From Arenicola marina (taxonomy: Eukaryota > Annelida > Polychaeta > Arenicolidae): a stretch of DNA of 64,000 nucleotides. The notes under the pieces were generated by a model. It ran no database searches. It saw only the letters and a program-made list of their open reading frames with translations, and was not told the DNA's origin. Shown here one piece after another: positions 27,110-53,352 of this stretch (the first letter of the stretch is position 1; every line of letters begins with the position of its first letter). The DNA lies in NCBI GenBank assembly GCA_964019135.1, contig OZ025265.1:26325143-26389142 (forward strand), read 5' to 3'. The position numbers were made by a program, and so were the translations under genes.

Positions 27110-27480
27110 AATTGGGCAACTTGGGGCTAAGTTGAAGGTAGACATGTTGCATGAAAATCGCGAGTCCGTGAAAAGCCCAGGACTTTCACGTGAAAAGTGC
27201 GAGACCACCCAAATTTACTGCGTTAAAAACGCGAGTCCGTGGAGAACCCGAGTTCTTCACGTGAAAAAAGCGAGTTCTGAGTGCCGTCTCGCTGTTTCCA
27301 CGGACTTAATTTTTTCACGCGAGGGTCGCGTGAAAACGTAGAGACAGAGAGCGTGTGAAAGTCACGGTATTTTCACGATACTCCTCGTGAAAATACCGGG
27401 ATTACAACGCTACCGCTTGTGAAAGTCCCGAGTTCTTAACGTGAAAAACCCGAGTTTCTCACGTAAAAATCAGAAGCTGC
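27110..27480. repeat. Palindrome-rich flank related to the 124-bp satellite
   Basis: Dense CACGTGAAAA, CGTGAAAGTC and GCGAGTCCGTG motifs form several perfect hairpins. One has an 11-bp stem at 27312-27322/27326-27336 (TTTTCACGCGA). Another has a 14-bp stem at 27365-27378/27385-27398 (CGGTATTTTCACGA). A longer pairing joins AGTCCGTGGA (~27236) with TCCACGGACT (~27297). The TTTCACG/CGTGAAA core is also hairpin 2 of the satellite monomer. Confidence 0.8.
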
Positions 27481-27643
27481 ATCTTTTATCGCCCACAATG
27501 CCTCAAAAGTCCATATTATCGCCTGTGAATAAAGAAATCGGAAGTTACATATTCGTTACACGCCAGTGACACCTATAGTACAAATTTGGCTCGGAGAACA
27601 AAGAATCTGAGATCATTGCGGCTTGGCATGGGTGTACATGATA

Positions 27644-27832
27644 TCCACGTGGGTTTAGGGACATGGGGATGGGGGGGGGGGACAGATTGTCATAGACTGA
27701 ATATGGCGATGATCCTGTCGCTCACGCATAGGGATAGCTGTCTCTCATGCTAAGCAACGGGGGAAATTTGGTCATGGCTATCTTGATCCTCCCCCCCCCG
27801 GCCCCATCCCCCAGGTCCCTTAACCCACATGG
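27644..27832. mobile_element. ~190-bp foldback/MITE-like element
   Basis: The ends are inverted repeats: CCACGTGGGTTTAGGGACAT on the left and, read inward from the right, CCATGTGGGTTAAGGGACCT. Each is followed by a G-rich tract ending in long G or C runs. The interior is unrelated. No clear target duplication. Confidence 0.65.
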
Positions 27833-27849
27833 ATCGGTAGAGCCCACCC

Positions 27850-28214
27850 CATGGCTGTGCTTTATTTTTTCACGCTCGCTCCCCGTGGAGAAGGCGAGTC
27901 CTGCTCCGTCTCAGTACACAGTGAAATGGTCTCGCATATTTTACGGCTTGCTTGCCGTGAAAAGCCCGAGACACCCTATACCCACTGACTGCATGTGCTC
28001 TATTTCTCCACGCTCGCCCCCCGTTGTAAAGGCGAGTCCGTGCTCTCTCTATACCACATAGTGCAGCGGTCTCGCTTATTTCACGGGTTGCTTGTCGTGA
28101 AAAGGCCGGGACACCCTACCCAATGACTGCTCTATTTCTTCACGCTTGGCCCCCCGTTGTAAATGCGAGTCCGTGCTATCTCTGTAACACACAGTGCAGT
28201 GGTCTCGCATATTT
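27850..28214. repeat. Degenerate edge monomers of the 124-bp satellite
   Basis: Three diverged monomers precede the regular array, with CACGCTCG/CACGCTTG at 27871, 28009 and 28141. Spacings are 138, 132 and then 92 bp to the first regular copy. They share CTCGCATATTT, ACGGCTTGCTTG, CGTGAAAAGCCCG and the CCACG...CGTGG arms. The last one is cut before the TTTCACG hairpin and fused directly to GGCTGTGCCC. Confidence 0.9.
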
Positions 28215-31200
28215 GGCTGTGCCCTATTTCTCCACGCACGTTCACCGTGGAGAATTAGGTTCTCTATACTACATAATGCATTGGTCTCGCATATTTCACG
28301 GCTTGCTTGCGTGAAAAGCCCGGGACATTTCATCGCATGGCTGTGCCCTATTTCTCCACGCCCGGTCACCGTGGAGAATTAGGTTCTGTATACTACATGT
28401 TGCATTGGTCTCGCATATTTCACGGCTTGCTTGCGTTAAAAGCCCGGGACATCTCATCGCATGGCTGTGCCCTATTTCTCCACGCCCGGTCACCGTGGAG
28501 AATTAGGTTCTCTATACTACATAATGCATTGGTCTCGCATATTTCACGGCTTGCTTGCGTGAAAAGCCCGGGACACCTCATCGCATGGCTGTGCCCTATT
28601 TCTCCACGCACGTTCACCGTGGAGAATTAGGTTCTGTATACTACATGTTGCATTGGTCTCGCATATTTCACGGCTTGCTTGCGTTAAAAGCCCGGGACAT
28701 CTCATCGCATGGCTGTGCCCTATTTCTCCACGGCCGTTCACCGTGGAGAATTAGGTTCTCTATACTACATAATGCATTGGTCTCGCATATTTCACGGCTT
28801 GCTTGCGTTAAAAGCCCGGGACATCTCATCGCATGGCTGTGCCCTATTTCTCCACGGCCGTTCACCGTGGAGAATTAGGTTCTCTATATTACATAATGCA
28901 TTGGTCTCGCATATTTCACGGCTTGCTTGCGTGAAAACCCCGGGACATCTCATCGCATGGCTGTGCCCTATTTCTCCACGCACGTTCACCGTGGAGAATT
29001 AGGTTCTGTATACTACATGTGGCATTGGTCTCGCATATTTCACGGCTTGCTTGCGTTAAAAGCCCGGGACATCTCATCGCATGGCTGTGCCCTATTTCTC
29101 CACGCCCGGTCACCGTGGAGAATTAGGTTCTCTATACTACATAATGCATTGGTCTCGCATATTTCACGGCTTGCTTGCGTGAAAAGCCCAGGACATCTCA
29201 TCGCATGGCTGTGCCCTATTTCTCCACGCACGTTAACCGTGGAGAATTAGGTTCTGTATACTACATGTTGCATTGGTCTCGCATATTTCACGGCTTGCTT
29301 GCGTTAAAAGCCCGGGACATCTCATCGCATGGCTGTGCCCTATTTCTCCACGGCCGTTCACCGTGGAGAATTAGGTTCTCTATGCTACATAATGCATTGG
29401 TCTCGCATATTTCACGGCTTGCTTGCGTTAAAAGCCCGGGACATCTCATCGCATGGCTGTGCCCTATTTCTCCACGGCCGTTCACCGTGGAGAATTAGGT
29501 TCTCTATACTACATAATGCATTGGTCTCGCATATTTCACGGCTTGCTTGCGTGAAAAGCCCGGGACATCTCATCGCATGGCTGTGCCCTATTTCTCCACG
29601 CACGTTCACCGTGGAGAATTAGGTTCTGTATACTACATGTTGCATTGGTCTCGCATATTTCACGGCTTGCTTGCGTTAAAAGCCCGGGACATCTCATCGC
29701 ATGGCTGTGCCCTATTTCTCCACGCCCGGTCACCGTGGAGAATTAGGTTCTCTATACTACATAATGCATTGGTCTCGCATATTTCACGGCTTGCTTGCGT
29801 GAAAAGCCCAGGACATCTCATCGCATGGCTGTGCCCTATTTCTCCACGCACGTTAACCGTGGAGAATTAGGTTCTGTATACTACATGTTGCATTGGTCTC
29901 GCATATTTCACGGCTTGCTTGCGTGAAAAGCCCAGGACATCTCATCGCATGGCTGTGCCCTATTTCTCCACGCACGTTCACCGTGGAGAATTAGGTTCTG
30001 TATACTACATGTTGCATTGGTCTCGCATATTTCACGGCTTGCTTGCGTTAAAAGCCCGGGACATCTCATCGCATGGCTGTGCCCTATTTCTCCACGCACG
30101 TTCACCGTGGAGAATTAGGTTCTCTATACTACATAATGCATTGGTCTCGCATATTTCACGGCTTGCTTGCGTGAAAAGCCCGGGACATCTCATCGCATGG
30201 CTGTGCCCTATTTCTCCACGCACGTTCACCGTGGGGAATTAGGTTCTGTATACTACATGTTGCATTGGTCTCGCATATTTCACGGCTTGCTTGCGTTAAA
30301 AGCCCGGGACATCTCATCGCATGGCTGTGCCCTATTTCTCCACGCCCGGTCACCGTGGAGAATTAGGTTCTCTATACTACATAATGCATTGGTCTCGCAT
30401 ATTTCACGGCTTGCTTGCGTGAAAAGCCCGGGACACCTCATCGCATGGCTGTGCCCTATTTCTCCACGCACGTTCACCGTGGAGAATTAGGTTCTGTATA
30501 CTACATGTTGCATTGGTCTCGCATATTTCACGGCTTGCTTGCGTTAAAAGCCCGGGACATCTCATCGCATGGCTGTGCCCTATTTCTCCACGGCCGTTCA
30601 CCGTGGAGAATTAGGTTCTGTATACTACATAATGCATTGGTCTCGCATATTTCACGGCTTGCTTGCGTGAAAAGCCCGGGACATCTCATCGCATGGCTGT
30701 GCCCTATTTCTCCACGCACGTTCACCGTGGAGAATTAGGTTCTGTATACTACATGTTGCATTGGTCTCGCATATTTCACGACTTGCTTGCGTTAAAAGCC
30801 CAGGACATCTCATCGCATGGCTGTGCCCTATTTCTCCACGCACGTTAACCGTGGAGAATTAGGTTCTGTATACTACATGTTGCATTGGTCTCGCATATTT
30901 CACGGCTTGCTTGCGTTAAAAGCCCGGGACATCTCATCGCATGGCTGTGCCCTATTTCTCCACGGCCGTTCACCGTGGAGAATTAGGTTCTCTATACTAC
31001 ATAATGCATTGGTCTCGCATATTTCACGGCTTGCTTGCGTTAAAAGCCCGGGACATCTCATCGCATGGCTGTGCCCTATTTCTCCACGCCCGGTCACCGT
31101 GGAGAATTAGGTTCTCTATACTACATAATGCATTGGTCTCGCATATTTCACGGCTTGCTTGCGTGAAAAGCCCAGGACATCTCATCGCATGGCTGTGCCC

Positions 31201-34200
31201 TATTTCTCCACGCACGTTCACCGTGGAGAATTAGGTTCTGTATACTACATGTTGCATTGGTCTCGCATATTTCACGGCTTGCTTGCGTTAAAAGCCCGGG
31301 ACATCTCATCGCATGGCTGTGCCCTATTTCTCCACGCACGTTCACCGTGGAGAATTAGGTTCTCTATACTACATAATGCATTGGTCTCGCATATTTCACG
31401 GCTTGCTTGCGTGAAAAGCCCGGGACATCTCATCGCATGGCTGTGCCCTATTTCTCCACGCACGTTCACCGTGGAGAATTAGGTTCTGTATACTACATGT
31501 TGCATTGGTCTCGCATATTTCACGGCTTGCTTGCGTTAAAAGCCCGGGACATCTCATCGCATGGCTGTGCCCTATTTCTCCACGCCCGGTCACCGTGGAG
31601 AATTAGGTTCTCTATACTACATAATGCATTGGTCTCGCATATTTCACGGCTTGCTTGCGTGAAAAGCCCAGGACATCTCATCGCATGGCTGTGCCCTATT
31701 TCTCCACGCACGTTCACCGTGGAGAATTAGGTTCTGTATACTACATGTTGCATTGGTCTCGCATATTTCACGGCTTGCTTGCGTTAAAAGCCCGGGACAT
31801 CTCATCGCATGGCTGTGCCCTATTTCTCCACGGCCGTTCACCGTGGAGAATTAGGTTCTCTATACTACATAATGCATTGGTCTCGCATATTTCACGGCTT
31901 GCTTGCGTTAAAAGCCCGGGACATCTCATCGCATGGCTGTGCCCTATTTCTCCACGGCCGTTCACCGTGGAGAATTAGGTTCTCTATACTACATAATGCA
32001 TTGGTCTCGCATATTTCGCGGCTTGCTTGCGTGAAAAGCCCGGGACATCTCATCGCATGGCTGTGCCCTATTTCTCCACGCACGTTCACCGTGGAGAATT
32101 AGGTTCTGTATACTACATGTTGCATTGGTCTCGCATATTTCACGGCTTGCTTGCGTTAAAAGCCCGGGACATCTCATCGCATGGCTGTGCCCTATTTCTC
32201 CACGCACGTTCACCGTGGAGAATTAGGTTCTCTATACTACATAATGCATTGGTCTCGCATATTTCACGGCTTGCTTGCGTGAAAAGCCCGGGACATCTCA
32301 TCGCATGGCTGTGCCCTATTTCTCCACGCACGTTCACCGTGGAGAATTAGGTTCTGTATACTACATGTTGCATTGGTCTCGCATATTTCACGGCTTGCTT
32401 GCGTTAAAAGCCCGGGACATCTCATCGCATGGCTGTGCCCTATTTCTCCACGCCCGGTCACCGTGGAGAATTAGGTTCTCTATACTACATAATGCATTGG
32501 TCTCGCATATTTCACGGCTTGCTTGCGTGAAAAGCCCAGGACATCTCATCGCATGGCTGTGCCCTATTTCTCCACGCACGTTCACCGTGGAGAATTAGGT
32601 TCTGTATACTACATGTTGCATTGGTCTCGCATATTTCACGGCTTGCTTGCGTTAAAAGCCCGGGACATCTCATCGCATGGCTGTGCCCTATTTCTCCACG
32701 GCCGTTCACCGTGGAGAATTAGGTTCTCGATACTACATAATGCATTGGTCTCGCATATTTCACGGCTTGCTTGCGTTAAAAGCCCGGGACATCTCATCGC
32801 ATGGCTGTGCCCTATTTCTCCACGGCCGTTCACCGTGGAGAATTAGGTTCTCTATACTACATAATGCATTGGTCTCGCATATTTCACGGCTTGCTTGCGT
32901 GAAAAGCCCGGGACATCTCATCGCATGGCTGTGCCCTATTTCTCCACGCACGTTCACCGTGGAGAATTAGGTTCTGTATACTACATGTTGCATTGGTCTC
33001 GCATATTTCACGGCTTGCTTGCGTTAAAAGCCCGGGACATCTCATCGCATGGCTGTGCCCTATTTCTCCACGCCCGGTCACCGTGGAGAATTAGGTTCTC
33101 TATACTACATAATGCATTGGTCTCGCATATTTCACGGCTTGCTTGCGTGAAAAGCCCAGGACATCTCATCGCATGGCTGTGCCCTATTTCTCCACGCACG
33201 TTCACCGTGGAGAATTAGGTTCTGTATACTACATGTTGCATTGGTCTCGCATATTTCACGGCTTGCTTGCGTTAAAAGCCCGGGACATCTCATCGCATGG
33301 CTGTGCCCTATTTCTCCACGGCCGTTCACCGTGGAGAATTAGGTTCTCTATGCTACATAATGCATTGGTCTCGCATATTTCACGGCTTGCTTGCGTTAAA
33401 AGCCCGGGACATCTCATCGCATGGCTGTGCCCTATTTCTCCACGGCCGTTCACCGTGGAGAATTAGGTTCTCTATACTACATAATGCATTGGTCTCGCAT
33501 ATTTCACGGCTTGCTTGCGTGAAAAGCCCGGGACATCTCATCGCATGGCTGTGCCCTATTTCTCCACGCACGTTCACCGTGGAGAATTAGGTTCTGTATA
33601 CTACATGTTGCATTGGTCTCGCATATTTCACGGCTTGCTTGCGTTAAAAGCCCGGGACATCTCATCGCATGGCTGTGCCCTATTTCTCCACGCCCGGTCA
33701 CCGTGGAGAATTAGGTTCTCTATACTACATAATGCATTGGTCTCGCATATTTCACGGCTTGCTTGCGTGAAAAGCCCAGGACATCTCATCGCATGGCTGT
33801 GCCCTATTTCTCCACGCACGTTCACCGTGGAGAATTAGGTTCTGTATACTACATGTTGCATTGGTCTCGCATATTTCACGGCTTGCTTGCGTTAAAAGCC
33901 CGGGACATCTCATCGCATGGCTGTGCCCTATTTCTCCACGGCCGTTCACCGTGGAGAATTAGGTTCTCTATGCTGCATAATGCATTGGTCTCGCATATTT
34001 CACGGCTTGCTTGCGTTAAAAGCCCGGGACATCTCATCGCATGGCTGTGCCCTATTTCTCCACGGCCGTTCACCGTGGAGAATTAGGTTCTCTATACTAC
34101 ATAATGCATTGGTCTCGCATATTTCACGGCTTGCTTGCGTGAAAAGCCCGGGACATCTCATCGCATGGCTGTGCCCTATTTCTCCACGCACGTTCACCGT

Positions 34201-37200
34201 GGAGAATTAGGTTCTGTATACTACATGTTGCATTGGTCTCGCATATTTCACGGCTTGCTTGCGTTAAAAGCCCGGGACATCTCATCGCATGGCTGTGCCC
34301 TATTTCTCCACGCCCGGTCACCGTGGAGAATTAGGTTCTCTATACTACATAATGCATTGGTCTCGCATATTTCACGGCTTGCTTGCGTGAAAAGCCCAGG
34401 ACATCTCATCGCATGGCTGTGCCCTATTTCTCCACGCACGTTAACCGTGGAGAATTAGGTTCTGTATACTACATGTTGCATTGGTCTCGCATATTTCACG
34501 GCTTGCTTGCGTTCAAAGCCCGGGACATCTCATCGCATGGCTGTGCCCTATTTCTCCACGCCCGGTCACCGTGGAGAATTAGGTTCTCTATACTACATAA
34601 TGCATTGGTCTCGCATATTTCACGGTTTGCTTGCGTGAAAAGCCCAGGACATCTCATCGCATGGCTGTGCCCTATTTCTCCACGCACGTTCACCGTGGAG
34701 AATTAGGTTCTGTATACTACATGTTGCATTGGTCTCGCATATTTCACGGCTTGCTTGCGTTAAAAGCCCGGGACATCTCATCGCATGGCTGTGCCCTATT
34801 TCTCCACGCCCGGTCACCGTGGAGAATTAGGTTCTCTATACTACATAATGCATTGGTCTCGCATATTTCACGGCTTGCTTGCGTGAAAAGCCCAGGACAT
34901 CTCATCGCATGGCTGTGCCCTATTTCTCCACGCACGTTCACCGTGGAGAATTAGGTTCTCTATGCTGCATAATGCATTGGTCTCGCATATTTCACGGCTT
35001 GCTTGCGTTAAAAGCCCGGGACATCTCATCGCATGGCTGTGCCCTATTTCTCCACGGCCGTTCACCGTGGAGAATTAGGTTCTGTATACTACATAATGCA
35101 TTGGTCTCGCATATTTCACGGCTTGCTTGCGTGAAAAGCCCGGGACATCTCATCGCATGGCTGTGCCCTATTTCTCCACGCACGTTCACCGTGGAGAATT
35201 AGGTTCTGTATACTACATGTTGCATTGGTCTCGCATATTTCACGGCTTGCTTGCGTTAAAAGCCCGGGACATCTCATCGCATGGCTGTGCCCTATTTCTC
35301 CACGCCCGGTCACCGTGGAGAATTAGGTTCTCTATACTACATAATGCATTGGTCTCGCATATTTCACGGCTTGCTTGCGTGAAAAGCCCAGGACATCTCA
35401 TCGCATGGCTGTGCCCTATTTCTCCACGCACGTTAACCGTGGAGAATTAGGTTCTGTATACTACATGTTGCATTGGTCTCGCATATTTCACGGCTTGCTT
35501 GCGTTCAAAGCCCGGGACATCTCATCGCATGGCTGTGCCCTATTTCTCCACGCCCGGTCACCGTGGAGAATTAGGTTCTCTATACTACATAATGCATTGG
35601 TCTCGCATATTTCACGGCTTGCTTGCGTGAAAAGCCCAGGACATCTCATCGCATGGCTGTGCCCTATTTCTCCACGCATGTTCACCGTGGAGAATTAGGT
35701 TCTGTATACTACATGTTGCATTGGTCTCGCATATTTCACGGCTTGCTTGCGTTAAAAGCCCGGGACATCTCATCGCATGGCTGTGCCCTATTTCTCCACG
35801 CACGTTCACCGTGGAGAATTAGGTTCTGTATACTACATAATGCATTGGTCTCGCATATTTCACGGCTTGCTTGCGTGAAAAGCCCAGGACATCTCATCGC
35901 ATGGCTGTGCCCTATTTCTCCACGCACGTTAACCGTGGAGAATTAGGTTCTGTATACTACATGTTGCATTGGTCTCGCATATTTCACGGCTTGCTTGCGT
36001 TAAAAGCCCGGGACATCTCATCGCATGGCTGTGCCCTATTTCTCCACGCCCGGTCACCGTGGAGAATTAGGTTCTGTATACTACATAATGCATTGGTCTC
36101 GCATATTTCACGGCTTGCTTGCGTGAAAAGCCCAGGACATCTCATCGCATGGCTGTGCCCTATTTCTCCACGCACGTTCACCGTGGAGAATTAGGTTCTG
36201 TATACTACATGTTGCATTGGTCTCGCATATTTCACGGCTTGCTTGCGTTAAAAGCCCGGGACATCTCATCGCATGGCTGTGCCCTATTTCTCCACGGCCG
36301 TTCACCGTGGAGAATTAGGTTCTCTATACTACATAATGCATTGGTCTCGCATATTTCACGGCTTGCTTGCGTTAAAAGCCCGGGACATCTCATCGCATGG
36401 CTGTGCCCTATTTCTCCACGGCCGTTCACCGTGGAGAATTAGGTTCTCTATACTACATAATGCATTGGTCTCGCATATTTCACGGCTTGCTTGCGTGACA
36501 AGCCCAGGACATCTCATCGCATGGCTGTGCCCTATTTCTCCACGCACGTTAACCGTGGAGAATTAGGTTCTGTATACTACATGTTGCATTGGTCTCGCAT
36601 ATTTCACGGCTTGCTTGCGTTAAAAGCCCGGGACATCTCATCGCATGGCTGTGCCCTATTTCTCCACGCCCGGTCACCGTGGAGAATTAGGTTCTCTATA
36701 CTACATAATGCATTGGTCTCGCATATTTCACGGCTTGCTTGCGTGAAAAGCCCAGGACATCTCATCGCATGGCTGTGCCCTATTTCTCCACGCACGTTCA
36801 CCGTGGAGAATTAGGTTCTGTATACTACATGTTGCATTGGTCTCGCATATTTCACGGCTTGCTTGCGTTAAAAGCCCGGGACATCTCATCGCATGGCTGT
36901 GCCCTATTTCTCCACGGCCGTTCACCGTGGAGAATTAGGTTCTCTATACTACATAATGCATTGGTCTCGCATATTTCACGGCTTGCTTGCGTGAAAAGCC
37001 CGGGACACCTCATCGCATGGCTGTGCCCTATTTCTCCACGCACGTTCACCGTGGAGAATTAGGTTCTGTATACTACATGTTGCATTGGTCTCTCATATTT
37101 CATGGCTTGCTTGCGTTAAAAGCCCGGGACATCTCATCGCATGGCTGTGCCCTATTTCTCCACGCACGTTCACCGTGGAGAATTAGGTTCTGTATACTAC

Positions 37201-37699
37201 ATGTTGCATTGGTCTCGCATATTTCACGGCTTGCTTGCGTTAAAAGCCCGGCACATTTCATCGCATGGCTGTGCCCTATTTCTCCACGGCCGTTCACCGT
37301 GGAGAATTAGGTTCTCTATACTACATAATGCATTGGTCTCGCATATTTCACGGCTTGCTTGCGTTAAAAGCCCGGGACATCTCATCGCATGGCTGTGCCC
37401 TATTTCTCCACGCCCGGTCACCGTGGAGAATTAGGTTCTCTATACTACATAATGCATTGGTCTCGCATATTTCACGGCTTGCTTGCGTGAAAAGCCCAGG
37501 ACATCTCATCGCATGGCTGTGCCCTATTTCTCCACGCACGTTCACCGTGGAGAATTAGGTTCTGTATACTACATGTTGAATTGGTCTCGCATATTTCACG
37601 GCTTGCTTGCGTTAAAAGCCCGGGACATCTCATCGCATGGCTGTGCCCTATTTCTCCACGCACGTTCACCGTGGAGAATTAGGTTCTCTATACTACATA

Positions 37700-40600
37700 A
37701 TGCATTGGTCTCGCATATTTCACGGCTTGCTTGCGTGAAAAGCCCGGGACATCTCATCGCATGGCTGTGCCCTATTTCTCCACGCACGTTCACCGTGGAG
37801 AATTAGGTTCTGTATACTACATGTTGCATTGGTCTCGCATATTTCACGGCTTGCTTGCGTTAAAAGCCCGGGACATCTCATCGCATGGATGTGCCCTATT
37901 TCTCCACGCCCGGTCACCGTGGAGAATTAGGTTCTCTATACTACATAATGCATTGGTCTCGCATATTTCACGGCTTGCTTGCGTTAAAAGCCCGGGACAT
38001 CTCATCGCATGGCTGTGCCCTATTTCTCCACGCCCGGTCACCGTGGAGAATTAGGTTCTCTATACTACATAATGCATTGGTCTCGCATATTTCACGGCTT
38101 GCTTGCGTGAAAAGCCCGGGACACCTCATCGCATGGCTGTGCCCTATTTCTCCACGCACGTTCACCGTGGAGAATTAGGTTCTGTATACTACATGTTGCA
38201 TTGGTCTCGCATATTTCACGGCTTGCTTGCGTTAAAAGCCCGGGACATCTCATCGCATGGCTGTGCCCTATTTCTCCACGGCCGTTCACCGTGGAGAATT
38301 AGGTTCTCTATACTACATAATGCATTGGTCTCGCATATTTCACGGCTTGCTTGCGTTAAAAGCCCGGGACATCTCATCGCATGGCTGTGCCCTATTTCTC
38401 CACGGCCGTTCACCGTGGAGAATTAGGTTCTCTATACTACATGATGCATTGGTCTCGCATATTTCACGGCTTGCTTTCGTGAAAAGCCCGGGACATCTCA
38501 TCGCATGGCTGTGCCCTATTTCTCCACGCACGTTCACCGTGGTAAATTAGGTTCTGTATACTACATGTTGCATTGGTCTCGCATATTTCACGGCTTGCTT
38601 GCGTTAAAAGCCCGGGACATCTCATCGCATGGCTGTGCCCTATTTCTCCACGCCCGGTCACCGTGGAGAATTAGGTTCTCTATACTACATAATGCATTGG
38701 TCTCGCATATTTCACGGCTTGCTTGCGTGAAAAGCCCAGGACATCTCATCGCATGGCTGTGCCCTATTTCTCCACGCACGTTAACCGTGGAGAATTAGGT
38801 TCTGTATACTACATGTTGCATTGGTCTCGCATATTTCACGGCTTGCTTGCGTTAAAAGCCCGGGACATCTCATCGCATGGCTGTGCCCTATTTCTCCACG
38901 CCCGGTCACCGTGGAGAATTAGGTTCTCTATACTACATAATGCATTGGTCTCGCATATTTCACGGCTTGCTTGCGTGAAAAGCCCAGGACATCTCATCGC
39001 ATGGCTGTGCCCTATTTCTCCACGCACGTTAACCGTGGAGAATTAGGTTCTGTATACTACATGTTGCATTGGTCTCGCATATTTCACGGCTTGCTTGCGT
39101 TAAAAGCCCGGGACATCTCATCGCATGGCTGTGCCCTATTTCTCCACGCCCGGTCACCGTGGAGAATTAGGTTCTCTATACTACATAATGCATTGGTCTC
39201 GCATATTTCACGGCTTGCTTGCGTGAAAAGCCCAGGACATCTCATCGCATGGCTGTGCCCTATTTCTCCACGCACGTTCACCGTGGAGAATTAGGTTCTG
39301 TATACTACATGTTGCATTGGTCTCGCATATTTCACGGCTTGCTTGCGTTAAAAGCCCGGGACATCTCATCGCATGGCTGTGCCCTATTTCTCCACGGCCG
39401 TTCACCGTGGAGAATTAGGTTCTCTGTACTACATAATGCATTGGTCTCGCATATTTCACGGCTTGCTTGCGTGAAAAGCCCGGGACATCTCATCGCATGG
39501 CTGTGCCCTACTTCTCCACGCACGTTCACCGTGGAGAATTAGGTTCTGTATACTACATGTTGCATTGGTCTCGCATATTTCACGGCTTGCTTGCGTTAAA
39601 AGCCCGGGACATCTCATCGCATGGCTGTGCCCTATTTCTCCACGCCCGGTCACCGTGGAGAATTAGGTTCTGTATACTACATGTTGAATTGGTCTCGCAT
39701 ATTTCACGGCTTGCTTGCGTTAAAAGCCCGGGACATCTCATCGCATGGCTGTGCCCTATTTCTCCACGCACGTTCACCGTGGAGAATTAGGTTCTCTATA
39801 CTACATAATGCATTGGTCTCGCATATTTCACGGCTTGCTTGCGTGAAAAGCCCGGGACATCTCATCGCATGGCTGTGCCCTATTTCTCCACGCACGTTCA
39901 CCGTGGAGAATTAGGTTCTGTATACTACATGTTGCATTGGTCTCGCATATTTCACGGCTTGCTTGCGTTAAAAGCCCGGGACATCTCATCGCATGGATGT
40001 GCCCTATTTCTCCACGCCCGGTCACCGTGGAGAATTAGGTTCTCTATACTACATAATGCATTGGTCTCGCATATTTCACGGCTTGCTTGCGTTAAAAGCC
40101 CGGGACATCTCATCGCATGGCTGTGCCCTATTTCTCCACGCCCGGTCACCGTGGAGAATTAGGTTCTCTATACTACATAATGCATTGGTCTCGCATATTT
40201 CACGGCTTGCTTGCGTGAAAAGCCCGGGACACCTCATCGCATGGCTGTGCCCTATTTCTCCACGCACGTTCACCGTGGAGAATTAGGTTCTGTATACTAC
40301 ATGTTGCATTGGTCTCGCATATTTCACGGCTTGCTTGCGTTAAAAGCCCGGGACATCTCATCGCATGGCTGTGCCCTATTTCTCCACGCACGTTCACCGT
40401 GGTAAATTAGGTTCTGTATACTACATGTTGCATTGGTCTCGCATATTTCACGGCTTGCTTGCGTTAAAAGCCCGGGACATCTCATCGCATGGCTGTGCCC
40501 TATTTCTCCACGCCCGGTCACCGTGGAGAATTAGGTTCTCTATACTACATAATGCATTGGTCTCGCATATTTCACGGCTTGCTTGCGTGAAAAGCCCAGG

Positions 40601-43500
40601 ACATCTCATCGCATGGCTGTGCCCTATTTCTCCACGCACGTTAACCGTGGAGAATTAGGTTCTGTATACTACATGTTGCATTGGTCTCGCATATTTCACG
40701 GCTTGCTTGCGTTAAAAGCCCGGGACATCTCATCGCATGGCTGTGCCCTATTTCTCCACGCCCGGTCACCGTGGAGAATTAGGTTCTCTATACTACATAA
40801 TGCATTGGTCTCGCATATTTCACGGCTTGCTTGCGTGAAAAGCCCAGGACATCTCATCGCATGGCTGTGCCCTATTTCTCCACGCACGTTAACCGTGGAG
40901 AATTAGGTTCTGTATACTACATGTTGCATTGGTCTCGCATATTTCACGGCTTGCTTGCGTTAAAAGCCCGGGACATCTCATCGCATGGCTGTGCCCTATT
41001 TCTCCACGCCCGGTCACCGTGGAGAATTAGGTTCTCTATACTACATAATGCATTGGTCTCGCATATTTCACGGCTTGCTTGCGTGAAAAGCCCAGGACAT
41101 CTCATCGCATGGCTGTGCCCTATTTCTCCACGCACGTTCACCGTGGAGAATTAGGTTCTGTATACTACATGTTGCATTGGTCTCGCATATTTCACGGCTT
41201 GCTTGCGTTAAAAGCCCGGGACATCTCATCGCATGGCTGTGCCCTATTTCTCCACGGCCGTTCACCGTGGAGAATTAGGTTCTCTGTACTACATAATGCA
41301 TTGGTCTCGCATATTTCACGGCTTGCTTGCGTGAAAAGCCCGGGACATCTCATCGCATGGCTGTGCCCTACTTCTCCACGCACGTTCACCGTGGAGAATT
41401 AGGTTCTGTATACTACATGTTGCATTGGTCTCGCATATTTCACGGCTTGCTTGCGTTAAAAGCCCGGGACATCTCATCGCATGGCTGTGCCCTATTTCTC
41501 CACGCCCGGTCACCGTGGAGAATTAGGTTCTGTATACTACATGTTGAATTGGTCTCGCATATTTCACGGCTTGCTTGCGTTAAAAGCCCGGGACATCTCA
41601 TCGCATGGCTGTGCCCTATTTCTCCACGCACGTTCACCGTGGAGAATTAGGTTCTCTATACTACATAATGCATTGGTCTCGCATATTTCACGGCTTGCTT
41701 GCGTGAAAAGCCCGGGACATCTCATCGCATGGCTGTGCCCTATTTCTCCACGCACGTTCACCGTGGAGAATTAGGTTCTGTATACTACATGTTGCATTGG
41801 TCTCGCATATTTCACGGCTTGCTTGCGTTAAAAGCCCGGGACATCTCATCGCATGGATGTGCCCTATTTCTCCACGCCCGGTCACCGTGGAGAATTAGGT
41901 TCTCTATACTACATAATGCATTGGTCTCGCATATTTCACGGCTTGCTTGCGTTAAAAGCCCGGGACATCTCATCGCATGGCTGTGCCCTATTTCTCCACG
42001 CCCGGTCACCGTGGAGAATTAGGTTCTCTATACTACATAATGCATTGGTCTCGCATATTTCACGGCTTGCTTGCGTGAAAAGCCCGGGACACCTCATCGC
42101 ATGGCTGTGCCCTATTTCTCCACGCACGTTCACCGTGGAGAATTAGGTTCTGTATACTACATGTTGCATTGGTCTCGCATATTTCACGGCTTGCTTGCGT
42201 TAAAAGCCCGGGACATCTCATCGCATGGCTGTGCCCTATTTCTCCACGGCCGTTCACCGTGGAGAATTAGGTTCTCTATACTACATAATGCATTGGTCTC
42301 GCATATTTCACGGCTTGCTTGCGTTAAAAGCCCGGGACATCTCATCGCATGGCTGTGCCCTATTTCTCCACGGCCGTTCACCGTGGAGAATTAGGTTCTC
42401 TATACTACATGATGCATTGGTCTCGCATATTTCACGGCTTGCTTTCGTGAAAAGCCCGGGACATCTCATCGCATGGCTGTGCCCTATTTCTCCACGCACG
42501 TTCACCGTGGTAAATTAGGTTCTGTATACTACATGTTGCATTGGTCTCGCATATTTCACGGCTTGCTTGCGTTAAAAGCCCGGGACATCTCATCGCATGG
42601 CTGTGCCCTATTTCTCCACGCCCGGTCACCGTGGAGAATTAGGTTCTCTATACTACATAATGCATTGGTCTCGCATATTTCACGGCTTGCTTGCGTGAAA
42701 AGCCCAGGACATCTCATCGCATGGCTGTGCCCTATTTCTCCACGCACGTTAACCGTGGAGAATTAGGTTCTGTATACTACATGTTGCATTGGTCTCGCAT
42801 ATTTCACGGCTTGCTTGCGTTAAAAGCCCGGGACATCTCATCGCATGGCTGTGCCCTATTTCTCCACGCCCGGTCACCGTGGAGAATTAGGTTCTCTATA
42901 CTACATAATGCATTGGTCTCGCATATTTCACGGCTTGCTTGCGTGAAAAGCCCAGGACATCTCATCGCATGGCTGTGCCCTATTTCTCCACGCACGTTAA
43001 CCGTGGAGAATTAGGTTCTGTATACTACATGTTGCATTGGTCTCGCATATTTCACGGCTTGCTTGCGTTAAAAGCCCGGGACATCTCATCGCATGGCTGT
43101 GCCCTATTTCTCCACGCCCGGTCACCGTGGAGAATTAGGTTCTCTATACTACATAATGCATTGGTCTCGCATATTTCACGGCTTGCTTGCGTGAAAAGCC
43201 CAGGACATCTCATCGCATGGCTGTGCCCTATTTCTCCACGCACGTTCACCGTGGAGAATTAGGTTCTGTATACTACATGTTGCATTGGTCTCGCATATTT
43301 CACGGCTTGCTTGCGTTAAAAGCCCGGGACATCTCATCGCATGGCTGTGCCCTATTTCTCCACGGCCGTTCACCGTGGAGAATTAGGTTCTCTGTACTAC
43401 ATAATGCATTGGTCTCGCATATTTCACGGCTTGCTTGCGTGAAAAGCCCGGGACATCTCATCGCATGGCTGTGCCCTACTTCTCCACGCACGTTCACCGT
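37700..43500. repeat. Higher-order block: three copies of 17, 15 and 17 monomers
   Basis: Rare variants recur at fixed distances. ATGGATGTG occurs at 37885, 39993 and 41853 (2108 then 1860 bp). GTGGTAAATT occurs near 38541, 40401 and 42509 (1860 then 2108). ATGATGCATT occurs at 38441 and 42409 (3968 = 32 x 124). The middle block lacks one 248-bp dimer that carries the GGCCGTTCA variants. Edges are approximate. Confidence 0.85.
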
Positions 43501-44799
43501 GGAGAATTAGGTTCTGTATACTACATGTTGCATTGGTCTCGCATATTTCACGGCTTGCTTGCGTTAAAAGCCCGGGACATCTCATCGCATGGCTGTGCCC
43601 TATTTCTCCACGCCCGGTCACCGTGGAGAATTAGGTTCTCTATACTACATAATGCATTGGTCTCGCATATTTCACGGCTTGCTTGCGTGAAAAGCCCAGG
43701 ACATCTCATCGCATGGCTGTGCCCTATTTCTCCACGCACGTTAACCGTGGAGAATTAGGTTCTGTATACTACATGTTGCATTGGTCTCGCATATTTCACG
43801 GCTTGCTTGCGTTAAAAGCCCGGGACATCTCATCGCATGGCTGTGCCCTATTTCTTCACGCCCGGTCACCGCGGAGAATTAGGTTCTCTATACTACATAA
43901 TGCATTGGTCTCGCATATTTCACGGCTTGCTTGCGTGAAAAGCCCGGGACATCTCATCGCATGGCTGTGCCCTATTTCTCCACGCACGTTCACCGTGGAG
44001 AATTAGGTTCTGTATACTACATGTTGCATTGGTCTCGCATATTTCACGGCTTGCTTGCGTTAAAAGCCCGGGACATCTCATCGCATGGCTGTGCCCTATT
44101 TCTCCACGCCCGGTCACCGTGGAGAATTAGGTTCTCTATACTACATAATGCATTGGTCTCGCATATTTCACGGCTTGCTTGCGTGAAAAGCCCGGGACAT
44201 CTCATCGCATGGCTGTGCCCTATTTCTCCACGCACGTTCACCGTGGAGAATTAGGTTCTGTATACTACATGTTGCATTGGTCTCTCATATTTCATGGCTT
44301 GCTTGCGTTAAAAGCCCGGGACATCTCATCGCATGGCTGTGCCCTATTTCTCCACGCACGTTCACCGTGGAGAATTAGGTTCTGTATACTACATAATGCA
44401 TTGGTCTCGCATATTTCACGGCTTGCTTGCGTGAAAAGCCCAGGACATCTCATCGCATGGCTGTGCCCTATTTCTCCACGCACGTTAACCGTGGAGAATT
44501 AGGTTCTGTATACTACATGTTGCATTGGTCTCGCATATTTCACGGCTTGCTTGCGTTAAAAGCCCGGGACATCTCATCGCATGGCTGTGCCCTATTTCTC
44601 CACGGCCGTTCACCGTGGAGAATTAGGTTCTCTATACTACATAATGCATTGGTCTCGCATATTTCACGGCTTGCTTGCGTTAAAAGCCCGGGACATCTCA
44701 TCGCATGGCTGTGCCCTATTTCTCCACGGCCGTTCACCGTGGAGAATTAGGTTCTCTATACTACATAATGCATTGGTCTCGCATATTTCACGGCTTGCT

Positions 44800-47700
44800 T
44801 GCGTGAAAAGCCCGGGACATCTCATCGCATGGCTGTGCCCTATTTCTCCACGCACGTTCACCGTGGAGAATTAGGTTCTGTATACTACATGTTGCATTGG
44901 TCTCGCATATTTCACGGCTTGCTTGCGTTAAAAGCCCGGGACACCTCATCGCATGGCTGTGCCCTATTTCTCCACGCACGTTCACCGTGGAGAATTAGGT
45001 TCTGTATACTACATGTTGCATTGGTCTCTCATATTTCATGGCTTGCTTGCGTTAAAAGCCCGGGACATCTCATCGCATGGCTGTGCCCTATTTCTCCACG
45101 CACGTTCACCGTGGAGAATTAGGTTCTCTATACTACATGTTGCATTGGTCTCGCATATTTCACGGCTTGCTTGCGTTAAAAGCCCGGGACATCTCATCGC
45201 ATGGCTGTGCCCTATTTCTCCACGGCCGTTCACCGTGGAGAATTAGGTTCTCTATACTACATAATGCATTGGTCTCGCATATTTCACGGCTTGCTTGCGT
45301 TAAAAGCCCGGGACATCTCATCGCATGGCTGTGCCCTATTTCTCCACGGCCGTTCACCGTGGAGAATTAGGTTCTCTATACTACATAATGCAGTGGTCTC
45401 GCATATTTCACGGCTTGCTTGCGTTAAAAGCCCGGGACATCTCATCGCATGGCTGTGCCCTATTTCTCCACGCCCGGTCACCGTGGAGAATTAGGTTCTC
45501 TATACTACATAATGCATTGGTCTCGCATATTTCACGGCTTGCTTGCGTGAAAAGCCCAGGACATCTCATCGCATGGCTGTGCCCTATTTCTCCACGCACG
45601 TTCACCGTGGAGAATTAGGTTCTCTATACTACATGTTGCATTGGTCTCGCATATTTCACGGCTTGCTTGCGTTAAAAGCCCGGGACATCTCATCGCATGG
45701 CTGTGCCCTATTTCTCCACGCACGTTCACCGTGGAGAATTAGGTTCTCTATACTACATAATGCATTGGTCTCGCATATTTCACGGCTTGCTTGCGTGAAA
45801 AGCCCGGGACATCTCATCGCATGGCTGTGCCCTATTTCTCCACGCACGTTCACCGTGGAGAATTAGGTTCTGTATACTACATGTTGCATTGGTCTCGCAT
45901 ATTTCACGGCTTGCTTGCGTTAAAAGCCCGGGACATCTCATCGCATGGCTGTGCCCTATTTCTCCACGCCCGGTCACCGTGGAGAATTAGGTTCTCTATA
46001 CTACATAATGCATTGGTCTCGCATATTTCACGGCTTGCTTGCGTGAAAAGCCCGGGACATCTCATCGCATGGCTGTGCCCTATTTCTCCACGCACGTTAA
46101 CCGTGGAGAATTAGGTTCTGTATACTACATGTTGCATTGGTCTCGCATATTTCACGGCTTGCTTGCGTTAAAAGCCCGGGACATCTCATCGCATGGCTGT
46201 GCCCTATTTCTCCACGCCGGGTCACCGTGGAGAATTAGGTTCTCTATACTACATAATGCATTGGTCTCGCATATTTCACGGCTTGCTTGCGTGAAAAGCC
46301 AGGGACATCTCATCGCATGGCTGTGCCCTATTTCTCCACGCACGTTAACCGTGGAGAATTAGGTTCTGTATACTACATGTTGCATTGGTCTCGCATATTT
46401 CACGGCTTGCTTGCGTTAAAAGCCCGGGACATCTCATCGCATGGCTGTGCCCTATTTCTCCACGCCCGGTCACCGTGGAGAATTAGGTTCTCTATACTAC
46501 ATAATGCATTGGTCTCGCATATTTCACGGCTTGCTTGCGTGAAAAGCCCAGGACATCTCATCGCATGGCTGTGCCCTATTTCTCCACGCACGTTCACCGT
46601 GGAGAATTAGGTTCTGTATACTACATGTTGCATTGGTCTCGCATATTTCACGGCTTGCTTGCGTTAAAAGCCCGGGACATCTCATCGCATGGCTGTGCCC
46701 TATTTCTCCACGGCCGTTCACCGTGGAGAATTAGGTTCTCTATACTACATAATGCATTGGTCTCGCATATTTCACGGCTTGCTTGCGTGAAAAGCCCGGG
46801 ACACCTCATCGCATGGCTGTGCCCTATTTCTCCACGCACGTTCACCGTGGAGAATTAGGTTCTGTATACTACATGTTGCATTGGTCTCTCATATTTCATG
46901 GCTTGCTTGCGTTAAAAGCCCGGGACATCTCATCGCATGGCTGTGCCCTATTTCTCCACGCACGTTCACCGTGGAGAATTAGGTTCTGTATACTACATGT
47001 TGCATTGGTCTCGCATATTTCACGGCTTGCTTGCGTTAAAAGCCCGGGACATCTCATCGCATGGCTGTGCCCTATTTCTCCACGGCCGTTCACCGTGGAG
47101 AATTAGGTTCTCTATACTACATAATGCATTGGTCTCGCATATTTCACGGCTTGCTTGCGTTAAAAGCCCGGGACATCTCATCGCATGGCTGTGCCCTATT
47201 TCTCCAAGGCCGTTCACCGTGGAGAATTAGGTTCTCTATACTACATAATGCAGTGGTCTCGCATATTTCACGGCTTGCTTGCGTTAAAAGCCCGGGACAT
47301 CTCATCGCATGGCTGTGCCCTATTTCTCCACGCCCGGTCACCGTGGAGAATTAGGTTCTCTATACTACATAATGCATTGGTCTCGCATATTTCACGGCTT
47401 GCTTGCGTGAAAAGCCCAGGACATCTCATCGCATGGCTGTGCCCTATTTCTCCACGCCCGGTCACCGTGGAGAATTAGGTTCTCTATACTACATAATGCA
47501 TTGGTCTCGCATATTTCACGGCTTGCTTGCGTGAAAAGCCCAGGACATCTCATCGCATGGCTGTGCCCTATTTCTCCACGCACGTTAACCGTGGAGAATT
47601 AGGTTCTGTATACTACATGTTGCATTGGTCTCGCATATTTCACGGCTTGCTTGCGTTAAAAGCCCGGGACATCTCATCGCATGGCTGTGCCCTATTTCTT

Positions 47701-50700
47701 CACGCCCGGTCACCGTGGAGAATTAAGTTCTCTATACTACATAATGCATTGGTCTCGCATATTTCACGGCTTGCTTGCGTGAAAAGCCCGGGACATCTCA
47801 TCGCATGGCTGTGCCCTATTTCTCCACGCACGTTCACCGTGGAGAATTAGGTTCTGTATACTACATGTTGCATTGGTCTCGCATATTTCACGGCTTGCTT
47901 GCGTTAAAAGCCCGGGACATCTCATCGCATGGCTGTGCCCTATTTCTCCACGCCCGGTCACCGTGGAGAATTAGGTTCTCTATACTACATAATGCATTGG
48001 TCTCGCATATTTCACGGCTTGCTTGCGTGAAAAGCCCGGGACACCTCATCGCATGGCTGTGCCCTATTTCTCCACGCACGTTCACCGTGGAGAATTAGGT
48101 TCTGTATACTACATGTTGCATTGGTCTCTCATATTTCATGGCTTGCTTGCGTTAAAAGCCCGGGACATCTCATCGCATGGCTGTGCCCTATTTCTCCACG
48201 CACGTTCACCGTGGAGAATTAGGTTCTGTATACTACATAATGCATTGGTCTCGCATATTTCACGGCTTGCTTGCGTGAAAAGCCCAGGACATCTCATCGC
48301 ATGGCTGTGCCCTATTTCTCCACGCACGTTAACCGTGGAGAATTAGGTTCTGTATACTACATGTTGCATTGGTCTCGCATATTTCACGGCTTGCTTGCGT
48401 TAAAAGCCCGGGACATCTCATCGCATGGCTGTGCCCTATTTCTCCACGCCCGGTCACCGTGGATAATTAGGTTCTGTATACTACATAATGCATTGGTCTC
48501 GCATATTTCACGGCTTGCTTGCGTGAAAAGCCCAGGACATCTCATCGCATGGCTGTGCCCTATTTCTCCACGCACGTTAACCGTGGAGAATTAGGTTCTG
48601 TATACTACATGTTGCATTGGTCTCGCATATTTCACGGCTTGCTTGCGTTAAAAGCCCGGGACATCTCATCGCATGGCTGTGCCCTATTTCTCCACGGCCG
48701 TTCACCGTGGAGAATTAGGTTCTCTATACTACATAATGCATTGGTCTCGCATATTTCACGGCTTGCTTGCGTTAAAAGCCCGGGACATCTCATCGCATGG
48801 CTGTGCCCTATTTCTCCACGGCCGTTCACCGTGGAGAATTAGGTTCTCTATACTACATAATGCATTGGTCTCGCATATTTCACGGCTTGCTTGCGTGAAA
48901 AGCCCGGGACATCTCATCGCATGGCTGTGCCCTATTTCTCCACGCACGTTCACCGTGGAGAATTAGGTTCTGTATACTACATGTTGCATTGGTCTCGCAT
49001 ATTTCACGGCTTGCTTGCGTTAAAAGCCCGGGACATCTCATCGCATGGCTGTGCCCTATTTCTCCACGCCCGGTCACCGTGGAGAATTAGGTTCTCTATA
49101 CTACATAATGCATTGGTCTCGCATATTTCACGGCTTGCTTGCGTGACAAGCCCAGGACATCTCATCGCATGGCTGTGCCCTATTTCTCCACGCACGTTAA
49201 CCGTGGAGAATTAGGTTCTGTATACTACATGTTGCATTGGTCTCGCATATTTCACGGCTTGCTTGCGTGAAAAGCCCGGGACACCTCATCGCATGGCTGT
49301 GCCCTATTTCTCCACGCACGTTCACCGTGGAGAATTAGGTTCTGTATACTACATGTTGCATTGGTCTCTCATATTTCATGGCTTGCTTGCGTTAAAAGCC
49401 CGGGACATCTCATCGCATGGCTGTGCCCTATTTCTCCACGCACGTTCACCGTGGAGAATTAGGTTCTGTATACTACATGTTGCATTGGTCTCGCATATTT
49501 CACGGCTTGCTTGCGTTAAAAGCCCGGGACATCTCATCGCATGGCTGTGCCCTATTTCTCCACGGCCGTTCACCGTGGAGAATTAGGTTCTCTATACTAC
49601 ATAATGCATTGGTCTCGCATATTTCACGGCTTGCTTGCGTTAAAAGCCCGGGACATCTCATCGCATGGCTGTGCCCTATTTCTCCACGGCCGTTCACCGT
49701 GGAGAATTAGGTTCTCTATACTACATAATGCAGTGGTCTCGCATATTTCACGGCTTGCTTGCGTTAAAAGCCCGGGACATCTCATCGCATGGCTGTGCCC
49801 TATTTCTCCACGGCCGTTCACCGTGGAGAATTAGGTTCTCTATACTACATAATGCATTGGTCTCGCATATTTCACGGCTTGCTTGCGTGAAAAGCCCAGG
49901 ACATCTCATCGCATGGCTGTGCCCTATTTCTCCACGCACGTTCACCGTGGAGAATTAGGTTCTCTATACTACATGTTGCATTGGTCTCGCATATTTCACG
50001 GCTTGCTTGCGTTAAAAGCCCGGGACATCTCATCGCATGGCTGTGCCCTATTTCTCCACGCACGTTCACCGTGGAGAATTAGGTTCTCTATACTACATAA
50101 TGCATTGGTCTCGCATATTTCACGGCTTGCTTGCGTGAAAAGCCCGGGACATCTCATCGCATGGCTGTGCCCTATTTCTCCACGCACGTTCACCGTGGAG
50201 AATTAGGTTCTGTATACTACATGTTGCATTGGTCTCGCATATTTCACGGCTTGCTTGCGTTAAAAGCCCGGGACATCTCATCGCATGGCTGTGCCCTATT
50301 TCTCCACGCCCGGTCACCGTGGAGAATTAGGTTCTCTATACTACATAATGCATTGGTCTCGCATATTTCACGGCTTGCTTGCGTGAAAAGCCCGGGACAT
50401 CTCATCGCATGGCTGTGCCCTATTTCTCCACGCACGTTAACCGTGGAGAATTAGGTTCTGTATACTACATGTTGCATTGGTCTCGCATATTTCACGGCTT
50501 GCTTGCGTTAAAAGCCCGGGACATCTCATCGCATGGCTGTGCCCTATTTCTCCACGCCGGGTCACCGTGGAGAATTAGGTTCTCTATACTACATAATGCA
50601 TTGGTCTCGCATATTTCACGGCTTGCTTGCGTGAAAAGCCAGGGACATCTCATCGCATGGCTGTGCCCTATATCTCCACGCACGTTAACCGTGGAGAATT

Positions 50701-53200
50701 AGGTTCTGTATACTACATGTTGCATTGGTCTCGCATATTTCACGGCTTGCTTGCGTTAAAAGCCCGGGACATCTCATCGCATGGCTGTGCCCTATTTCTC
50801 CACGCCCGGTCACCGTGGAGAATTAGGTTCTCTATACTACATAATGCATTGGTCTCGCATATTTCACGGCTTGCTTGCGTGAAAAGCCCAGGACATCTCA
50901 TCGCATGGCTGTGCCCTATTTCTCCACGCACGTTCACCGTGGAGAATTAGGTTCTGTATACTACATGTTGCATTGGTCTCGCATATTTCACGGCTTGCTT
51001 GCGTTAAAAGCCCGGGACATCTCATCGCATGGCTGTGCCCTATTTCTCCACGGCCGTTCACCGTGGAGAATTAGGTTCTCTATACTACATAATGCATTGG
51101 TCTCGCATATTTCACGGCTTGCTTGCGTGAAAAGCCCGGGACACCTCATCGCATGGCTGTGCCCTATTTCTCCACGCACGTTCACCGTGGAGAATTAGGT
51201 TCTGTATACTACATGTTGCATTGGTCTCTCATATTTCATGGCTTGCTTGCGTTAAAAGCCCGGGACATCTCATCGCATGGCTGTGCCCTATTTCTCCACG
51301 CACGTTCACCGTGGAGAATTAGGTTCTGTATACTACATGTTGCATTGGTCTCGCATATTTCACGGCTTGCTTGCGTTAAAAGCCCGGGACATCTCATCGC
51401 ATGGCTGTGCCCTATTTCTCCACGGCCGTTCACCGTGGAGAATTAGGTTCTCTATACTACATAATGCATTGGTCTCGCATATTTCACGGCTTGCTTGCGT
51501 TAAAAGCCCGGGACATCTCATCGCATGGCTGTGCCCTATTTCTCCACGGCCGTTCACCGTGGAGAATTAGGTTCTCTATACTACATAATGCATTGGTCTC
51601 GCATATTTCACGGCTTGCTTGCGTTAAAAGCCCGGGACATCTCATCGCATGGCTGTGCCCTATTTCTCCACGCCCGGTCACCGTGGAGAATTAGGTTCTC
51701 TATACTACATAATGCATTGGTCTCGCATATTTCACGGCTTGCTTGCGTGAAAAGCCCAGGACATCTCATCGCATGGCTGTGCCCTATTTCTCCACGCACG
51801 TTCACCGTGGAGAATTAGGTTCTGTATACTACATGTTGCATTGGTCTCGCATATTTCACGGCTTGCTTGCGTTAAAAGCCCGGGACATCTCATCGCATGG
51901 CTGTGCCCTGTTTCTCCACGCACGTTCACCGTGGAGAATTAGGTTCTCTATACTACATAATGCATTGGTCTCGCATATTTCACGGCTTGCTTGCGTGAAA
52001 AGCCCGGGACATCTCATCGCATGGCTGTGCCCTATTTCTCCACGCACGTTCACCGTGGAGAATTAGGTTCTGTATACTACATGTTGCATTGGTCTCGCAT
52101 ATTTCACGGCTTGCTTGCGTTAAAAGCCCGGGACATCTCATCGCATGGCTGTGCCCTATTTCTCCACGCCCGGTCACCGTGGAGAATTAGGTTCTCTATA
52201 CTACATAATGCATTGGTCTCGCATATTTCACGGCTTGCTTGCGTGAAAAGCCCGGGACATCTCATCGCATGGCTGTGCCCTATTTCTCCACGCACGTTAA
52301 CCGTGGAGAATTAGGTTCTGTATACTACATGTTGCATTGGTCTCGCATATTTCACGGCTTGCTTGCGTTAAAAGCCCGGGACATCTCATCGCATGGCTGT
52401 GCCCTATTTCTCCACGCCCGGTCACCGTGGAGAATTAGGTTCTCTATACTACATAATGCATTGGTCTCGCATATTTCACGGCTTGCTTGCGTGAAAAGCC
52501 AGGGACATCTCATCGCATGGCTGTGCCCTATTTCTCCACGCACGTTAACCGTGGAGAATTGGGTTCTGTATACTACATGTTGCATTGGTCTCGCATATTT
52601 CACGGCTTGCTTGCGTTAAAAGCCCGGGACATCTCATCGCATGGCTGTGCCCTATTTCTCCACGCCCGGTCACCGTGGAGAATTAGGTTCTCTATACTAC
52701 ATAATGCATTGGTCTCGCATATTTCACGGCTTGCTTGCGTGAAAAGCCCGGGACATCTCATCGCATGGCTGTGCCCTATTTCTCCACGCACGTTAACCGT
52801 GGAGAATTAGGTTCTGTATACTACATGTTGCATTGGTCTCGCATATTTCACGGCTTGCTTGCGTTAAAAGCCCGGGACATCTCATCGCATGGCTGTGCCC
52901 TATTTCTCCACGCCCGGTCACCGTGGAGAATTAGGTTCTCTATACTACATAATGCATTGGTCTCGCATATTTCACGGCTTGCTTGCGTGAAAAGCCAGGG
53001 ACATCTCATCGCATGGCTGTGCCCTATTTCTCCACGCACGTTAACCGTGGAGAATTGGGTTCTGTATACTACATGTTGCATTGGTCTCGCATATTTCACG
53101 GCTTGCTTGCGTTAAAAGCCCGGGACATCTCATCGCATGGCTGTGCCCTATTTCTCCACGCCCGGTCACCGTGGAGAATTAGGTTCTGTATACTACATGT
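44800..53200. repeat. Higher-order block: 35-monomer (4340 bp) duplication plus a 496-bp local one
   Basis: CACGCCGGGTC occurs at 46214 and 50554 (4340 = 35 x 124). TAATGCAGTGG variants lie at about 45386, 47246 and 49726 (1860 and 2480). AAGCCAGGGA recurs at about 46298, 50638, 52498 and 52994. The last two are a 496-bp (4-monomer) tandem step, also marked by AATTGGGTTC. Edges are approximate. Confidence 0.85.
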
Positions 53201-53352
53201 TGCATTGGTCTCGCATATTTCACGGCTTGCTTGCGTGAAAAGCCCGGGACACCTCATCGCATGGCTGTGCCCTATTTCTGCACGCACGTTCACCATGGAG
53301 AATTAGGGTACATCTCTCTACAGTACATGATGCATTTCTGCAGGTATCTTGA

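Follow-up and report, generated by a model that had tools for sequence, protein, structure and literature searches.

A tandem array of 124-bp units in the lugworm Arenicola marina raises the question of how a repeat that carries variants throughout can run for 25 kb in perfect register, and whether such an array is a satellite in its own right. The array lies in a 64,000-nucleotide stretch of contig OZ025265.1 (assembly GCA_964019135.1, positions 26,325,143 to 26,389,142 of the forward strand), hereafter the window. An earlier, sequence-only reading took it for a satellite and named recent homogenisation, selection on unit length and an assembler expanding a consensus as possible causes of the register. 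The array is very probably the tandem-repeat part of one arm, denoted the B-arm, of a foldback-like DNA transposon family for which no coding copy was found. It is not a free-standing satellite but looks like satellite DNA being born from a transposon. The homogenisation suggested earlier is supported and the selection is not, whereas the membership of the array in a mobile element had gone unnoticed.

As assembled, the array consists of 202 complete 124-bp units on the plus strand (28215-53262) without an indel, and the unit starts span 28215 to 53263, which is exactly 202 x 124 bp. Among the 199 gaps between 200 exact matches to the start motif, 196 are 124 bp long and three are 248 bp long because the motif is mutated in one unit each. 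A second anchor motif yields 202 sites with a spacing of 124 bp throughout, and Tandem Repeats Finder (TRF) delimits the array at 28214-53307 with 97% matches and 0% indels, although it scores a period of 248 bp best. These three lines of evidence confirm the earlier claim of 202 monomers with no net length change. The point variants, also reported previously, amount to 53 distinct monomers among the 202 units, with a mean divergence from the consensus of 2.9%. The autocorrelation of the array is 97.0% at 248 bp vs 95.1% at 124 bp, and units differ by 4.9% from their neighbors but by 3.0% from the units two apart, which indicates a dimer superimposed on the 124-bp period. Within the array, sequence is moreover repeated exactly over 2,130 bp (lag of 32 units, from 37542), 1,907 bp (15 units, from 38482) and 1,190 bp (17 units, from 40342); the two longest of these repeats, of 1.9-2.1 kb, indicate that blocks were duplicated recently. 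The feature as a whole exceeds the array, extending to the left up to 27145, so as to include an element end, a terminal domain and older units, and to the right up to ~53337.

The unit is widely dispersed in the genome (867 Mb in 762 contigs), with at least 485 matches on many chromosomes (39 of 389 candidates scored), and at several places plus-strand and minus-strand arrays are located ~3 kb apart. The unit was mapped in twenty fetched 10-kb loci, all of which were picked by similarity to it. Two types of ends that face each other are recognizable, A (TGTTGCATGAAAATAGCGAGTCGTG) and B (TGTTGCATGAAAATCGCGAGTCCGTG). The genome contains 153 matches to the 22-nt end, compared with 0 for the reversed control. 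A complete copy consists of end A, an array, an inverted spacer, an inverted array and end B. In locus L011, the order from an end inward is terminal domain, older units, 124-bp array and G-rich spacer, the last of which is likewise inverted. In nine array-bearing copies, 60-85% of the sequence falls within inverted self-matches. Among 20 end pairs, an inner pair within L018 and the pair in L037, which repeats the flank of L036, were dropped, leaving 18 complete copies. Exact 4-bp target-site duplications flank 13 of these 18, compared with 7 of 378 mismatched pairs composed of flanks of different loci; L041 has a 5-bp duplication, TGGTT. The shortest copy (L038, 235-359; 125 bp) is made up of the A-end and the B-end alone and is flanked by the 4-bp duplication TGCC. 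The long inverted arms, the variable number of tandem repeats and the precise ends with target-site duplications are the structural hallmarks of foldback-type elements.

An identical flank is found beside the B-end on two contigs (L021 at 7594 and L024 at 8129; C8 and C1), as would be expected if copies had exchanged sequence or had inserted into another repeat. In a segment of ~100 kb (G000, C7:38079042-38179964), there are nine plus-strand A-ends, which are paired, as if carried in a larger tandem duplication.

The mitochondrial cox1 of this genome uses AAA at a position expected to encode Lys (NHKDIG) and ATA at one expected to encode Met, in agreement with the invertebrate code; this differs from the code of echinoderms, and a sea-urchin origin was therefore rejected. 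A neighboring frame, presumably nad2, extends up to cox1, as it does in annelids and molluscs, and ARAGORN in bacterial mode predicted no tRNA there. Comparison of cox1 with PDB chains did not point to a particular species.

The outer end of the arm in the window, at 27145, reads TGTTGCATGAAAATCGCGAG. From this point to at least 28447, 11 of the 20 fetched loci can be aligned to the window copy without interruption (94-97%), and the alignment spans the junction between the older and the homogenised units; hence this junction is likely to have arrived with the element. At its right-hand side, the array breaks off within a divergent unit at ~53337, whereas in 24 of the 40 arms scored the transition to the spacer falls at one fixed point of the unit. 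The 32.6 kb to the right of the array contain no element sequence. An A-end of opposite direction is located at window coordinate 88982, where 17.75 units are followed directly by a B domain without its first 224 bp; given that its flank does not match the flank of the B-end in the window, it is treated as a separate, rearranged copy. The parts of the window copy and the other features of the window are listed in Table 1.

Table 1. Parts of the foldback-like element copy, followed by other features of the window (coordinates count from the first nucleotide of the window).
Feature	Position	Strand	Evidence or remark
B-arm of foldback-like element, without spacer and opposite arm	27145..53337	+	B-end at 27145; alignment to other loci
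B-end terminal inverted repeat TGTTGCATGAAAATCGCGAGTC	27145..27166	+	153 genome matches of A/B consensus; reversed control 0
Outer terminal domain, dense CGTGAAA / TTTCACG half-sites	27145..27500	+	28.1 half-sites per kb
Inner terminal domain lacking half-sites, with short spacer matches	27501..27852	+	
Older divergent repeat units	27853..28214	+	TRF period 133, 2.7 copies
Indel-free array of 202 complete 124-bp units of 53 sequence types, with dimeric trend	28215..53262	+	
Exact block duplications	37542..43639	+	Internal repeats at lags of 32, 15 and 17 units
Divergent truncated last unit; array stops in AT-rich DNA, no normal spacer junction	53263..53337	+	
Another tandem array, cut by the window start	1..2249		Period ~103 bp, combined periods 301 and 404 bp
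102-bp tandem repeat	11806..12589		Open as a 34-aa repeat within a 277-aa frame
Frame with BIR (inhibitor-of-apoptosis) domain	16288..16767	-	7.7e-11
540-aa open frame, Tc5/pogo-type transposase	24073..25695	+	DDE_1 6.4e-21 and HTH_Tnp_Tc5 6.8e-8 above cut-off; CENP-B_N match below cut-off

Each unit contains two head-to-head pairs of half-sites, TTCTCCACG...CGTGGAGAA and TTTCACG...CGTGAAA (or CGTTAAA). Per kb, there are 26.8 half-sites in the array and 28.1 in the outer terminal domain, compared with 0.11 and 0.28 in the two flanks. Because half-sites of the CGTG(A/G)A(A/G) type are common to the units and the B terminus, and by analogy with the transposon Galileo discussed below, the units probably represent putative extra transposase-binding sites derived from the terminal sequence; this idea draws on the B terminus, given that 27501-27850 and the A terminus of L011 are poor in half-sites. 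The two strands of an array unit fold little better than shuffled sequences (z = -0.93 and -1.26), with z = -2.21 for the older unit at 27856-27979 and -2.86 for the terminus at 27145-27290. The folding signal is attributed to the palindromes, and no RNA function is claimed.

The arms of this family differ widely in size. Among the 40 arms scored, those outside the window contain 1-45 units, and the window arm contains 204 by the same count, which includes two older units. Ten arms carry 1-3 units, mostly divergent, and all ten lack the normal inner edge. The 30 arms with at least four units comprise 24 that have this edge (4-35 units, median 12) and six that do not (11, 12, 18, 35, 45 and, in the window, 204 units; median 26.5), so that within this class the broken arms are larger (p = 0.02), in a comparison that was chosen after the all-arm result, includes the window arm and involves small numbers, with the first twenty loci picked by unit similarity. 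Across all 40 arms, the direction is reversed, with a median of 2 for arms without the normal inner edge vs 12 for those with it (p = 0.04), because the ten array-poor arms lack this edge as well. A search for long arrays yielded arms of ~56, 46 and 38 units among the matches listed; the window array itself was not among them, so that 202 units is the largest array seen but not proven to be the largest. The size trend among the larger arms fits the suggestion made for the fruit fly element Tetris that large arrays accompany element disruption. Under the scenario favored here, the array of the copy at 27145 would have been shorter on arrival, with units that varied already, and might have reached 202 units through several rounds of unequal exchange or slippage involving blocks of 15-35 units; the register would remain perfect if the amplified blocks contained 124-bp units only.

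The commonest variants of the window array, 24C, 27G, 50G, 61G, 62T and 99G, are found throughout the family, in 18-21 of 21 other loci, indicating that the frequent variation predates the expansion. The variants 23G and 108A occur in 41 and 40 copies in the window array vs 1 and 2 copies elsewhere, and 13 of the 45 variant states found in the window have no counterpart at the other loci. The proposed recent homogenisation is supported by the exact repeats of 2,130 and 1,907 bp together with the 62 of 298 units from other loci that are letter-identical to a window unit. Unit length in these loci is not invariant: 308 of 363 spacings are 124 bp and 55 differ (100-143 bp). Many of the off-length units, of 130-134 bp, are found at the outer edge of arms, but in L013, L025, L026 and L029 such units are located further inside too, with a 125-bp form repeated seven times in L026. 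The window array shows 35 rarer substitution states, distributed along its length, whereas elsewhere seven array-specific indels (nine with two large deletions in L029; counted by hand from unit listings) accompany 183 rarer substitution states. The number of new indels expected in the window array is thus 1.34 (1.72), and the probability of none is 0.26 (0.18). A first calculation, with P = 0.001, was rejected because inherited edge insertions common to many arms had been counted as new. With off-length units present elsewhere and no more than about 1.3-1.7 new indels to be expected, selection on unit length is not required to explain the perfect register; recent amplification of blocks made up solely of 124-bp units accounts for it.

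Several observations weigh against the assignment of the array to a foldback-like element. The window copy is without its opposite arm, so that no duplication can attest to its insertion; four of the 18 complete copies (L011, L019, L021 and L034) have no duplication; and inverted self-coverage is low in the old short forms (20% in L033 and 40% in L035). Half-sites are absent from 27501-27850 and number only two in the 575 bp of the L011 A terminus, the interiors of L039, L040, L041 and L044 yielded neither a transposase nor a coding copy, and growth by unequal exchange, as we infer it, is based on one assembly. Nevertheless, an independent satellite whose 124-bp unit is not the element's own, with transposons inserted beside or into the array by chance, appears very unlikely. 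Such a satellite would be compatible with an array far longer than the other scored arms and with a right end in unrelated DNA; however, arrays have a constant position within copies that are bordered by target-site duplications, and the junction between old and new units recurs in 11 of the 20 similarity-picked loci. It is similarly improbable, and to a high degree, that selection for nucleosome phasing or for ~12 helical turns holds the unit at 124 bp. The indel-free run of 202 units and the predominance of the same spacing elsewhere are in line with such selection, but the off-length units in other copies, including the 125-bp form that was multiplied in L026, and the small number of new indels expected in the first place argue against it.

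A B-end and an A-end that face each other on one contig, with arrays in opposite orientations, might also belong to a single giant element of ~62 kb, composed of the B-arm in the window and the A-arm ending at 88982, with 32.6 kb of captured DNA between them. This is unlikely, considering that the flanking 4-mers are unequal (GACA vs TTTT), that the A-end abuts the B domain of another copy whose missing 224 bp are not seen to the left of 27145, and that the DNA between the two arms holds no element piece. Inflation of the unit number by the assembler is about as improbable: the exact 1.9-2.1 kb repeats inside the array are sequences of a type prone to mis-set copy number, but a repeated consensus, as envisaged in the sequence-only reading, would not yield 53 monomer types and 35 rarer substitution states throughout the array. 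Finally, the Tc5/pogo-type transposase frame 2.5 kb to the left of the element could bring to mind a centromeric satellite with a CENP-B box, and a ribozyme-bearing satellite is a related option; both are extremely unlikely. The CENP-B-box core, with at most one mismatch, has a single match in the window, outside the array, vs 10 expected by chance; no Rfam family, the hammerhead ribozyme included, reaches the gathering score in the window; and the unit is spread across many chromosomes. Taken together, the arm of a foldback-like element remains the best explanation of the array.

The interiors of L039, L040, L041 and L044 were examined for a coding partner, and no Gypsy-integrase-like transposase was found in them. 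L039 and L041 have in common a 3.1-kb interior with a broken stretch that appears to resemble a PIF/Harbinger motif but has no Pfam hit at 0.1. The same interior is present in L042, where convincing ends are absent, and has at least 54 matches genome-wide (40 of 249 candidates scored). Being found in L042 and many other places, it was rejected as the autonomous partner and appears to be a separate dispersed repeat, which exceeds 3 kb (L042, 1194-4961; L041, 1909-5666; L039, 1061-4409). The frames of L040 produced no Pfam hit; one of them has at least 145 matches genome-wide (150 of 221 candidates scored) but, judged by eye among the ends listed, only its own copy lies between paired ends, and it was likewise rejected. 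No frame longer than 118 aa is present in L044, which represents the central 5.0 kb of a pair of ends spanning 9.8 kb.

This is a new family of a known kind, given that the birth of a satellite from a transposon has already been described in the fruit fly, and it provides a second, well-populated case of a satellite growing from a foldback transposon. One genome holds array-poor copies (1-3 units), arms with an intact edge (4-35 units) and broken arms (up to 202 units), and this coexistence of stages makes the step in which an arm breaks and its array runs away testable by comparison of individuals. The case also illustrates that selection on unit length is not required for 25 kb of perfect register, which can result from recent amplification of blocks.

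No description of the 124-bp family was recognised among the open-licence papers listed. Long terminal inverted repeats that are internally repetitive are a feature of other foldback-like elements, such as Drosophila FB and sea-urchin TU, and rolling-circle elements are not known to have inverted arms or target-site duplications. Helentron elements of the oyster are reported to carry satellite-like arrays (PMC7492417). As in that case, tandem arrays are dispersed genome-wide by non-autonomous mobile elements in A. marina, but the family described here has inverted arms and target-site duplications. Closer in their ends are Ginger1 and Ginger2, for which TGTNR ends, 4-bp duplications (5 bp in TDD-4 and TDD-5) and a target preference for CCGG/CCGT (Ginger1) or RTATAY (Ginger2) are reported (PMC2836005). 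The ends of the A. marina family begin with TGTTG, which fits TGTNR, and the duplication is 4 bp in 13 of 18 copies. However, in contrast to Ginger as characterized there, none of the 13 duplicated 4-mers is CCGG, CCGT or ACGG, no AT-rich preference is apparent by eye, the arms are long and tandemly repeated, and no integrase-like gene was found in the interiors examined. A tentative scenario, which we consider rather doubtful, is that a Ginger-like, integrase-related transposase mobilises this foldback family with 4-bp duplications, that the units are multiplied putative binding sites, and that arms without a partner, freed from transposition, run away into satellites, with the stages of 1-3, 4-35 and 202 units seen in one genome.

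With regard to the arms themselves, the similarity is greater to Galileo, in which internal repeats of the long terminal inverted repeats are reported to carry extra transposase-binding sites (PMC4079207). Galileo shares internally repetitive long terminal inverted repeats with the A. marina family but belongs to the P superfamily and, as far as described there, is unlike it in unit sequence, ends and duplication length. The same source reports that Tetris of Drosophila virilis has no coding capacity and that tandem repeats of its arms seeded the TIR-220 satellite arrays (PMC4079207). In Tetris and the family described here alike, the inverted arms are long and comprise an outer domain as well as internal tandem repeats that vary in number; the repeats also form satellite-like arrays of greater length (up to 66 copies in Tetris vs 202 here), rearranged copies occur, and in both cases the autonomous partner was not found. 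The differences are that the unit is ~220 bp and the duplications are 8-10 bp in Tetris vs 124 bp and 4 bp here, and that Tetris has been placed in Mutator (PMC4079207), an assignment that does not suit the present family. Altogether, Tetris/TIR-220 is the closest precedent, although the differences in unit and duplication lengths indicate that the A. marina family is not a Tetris.

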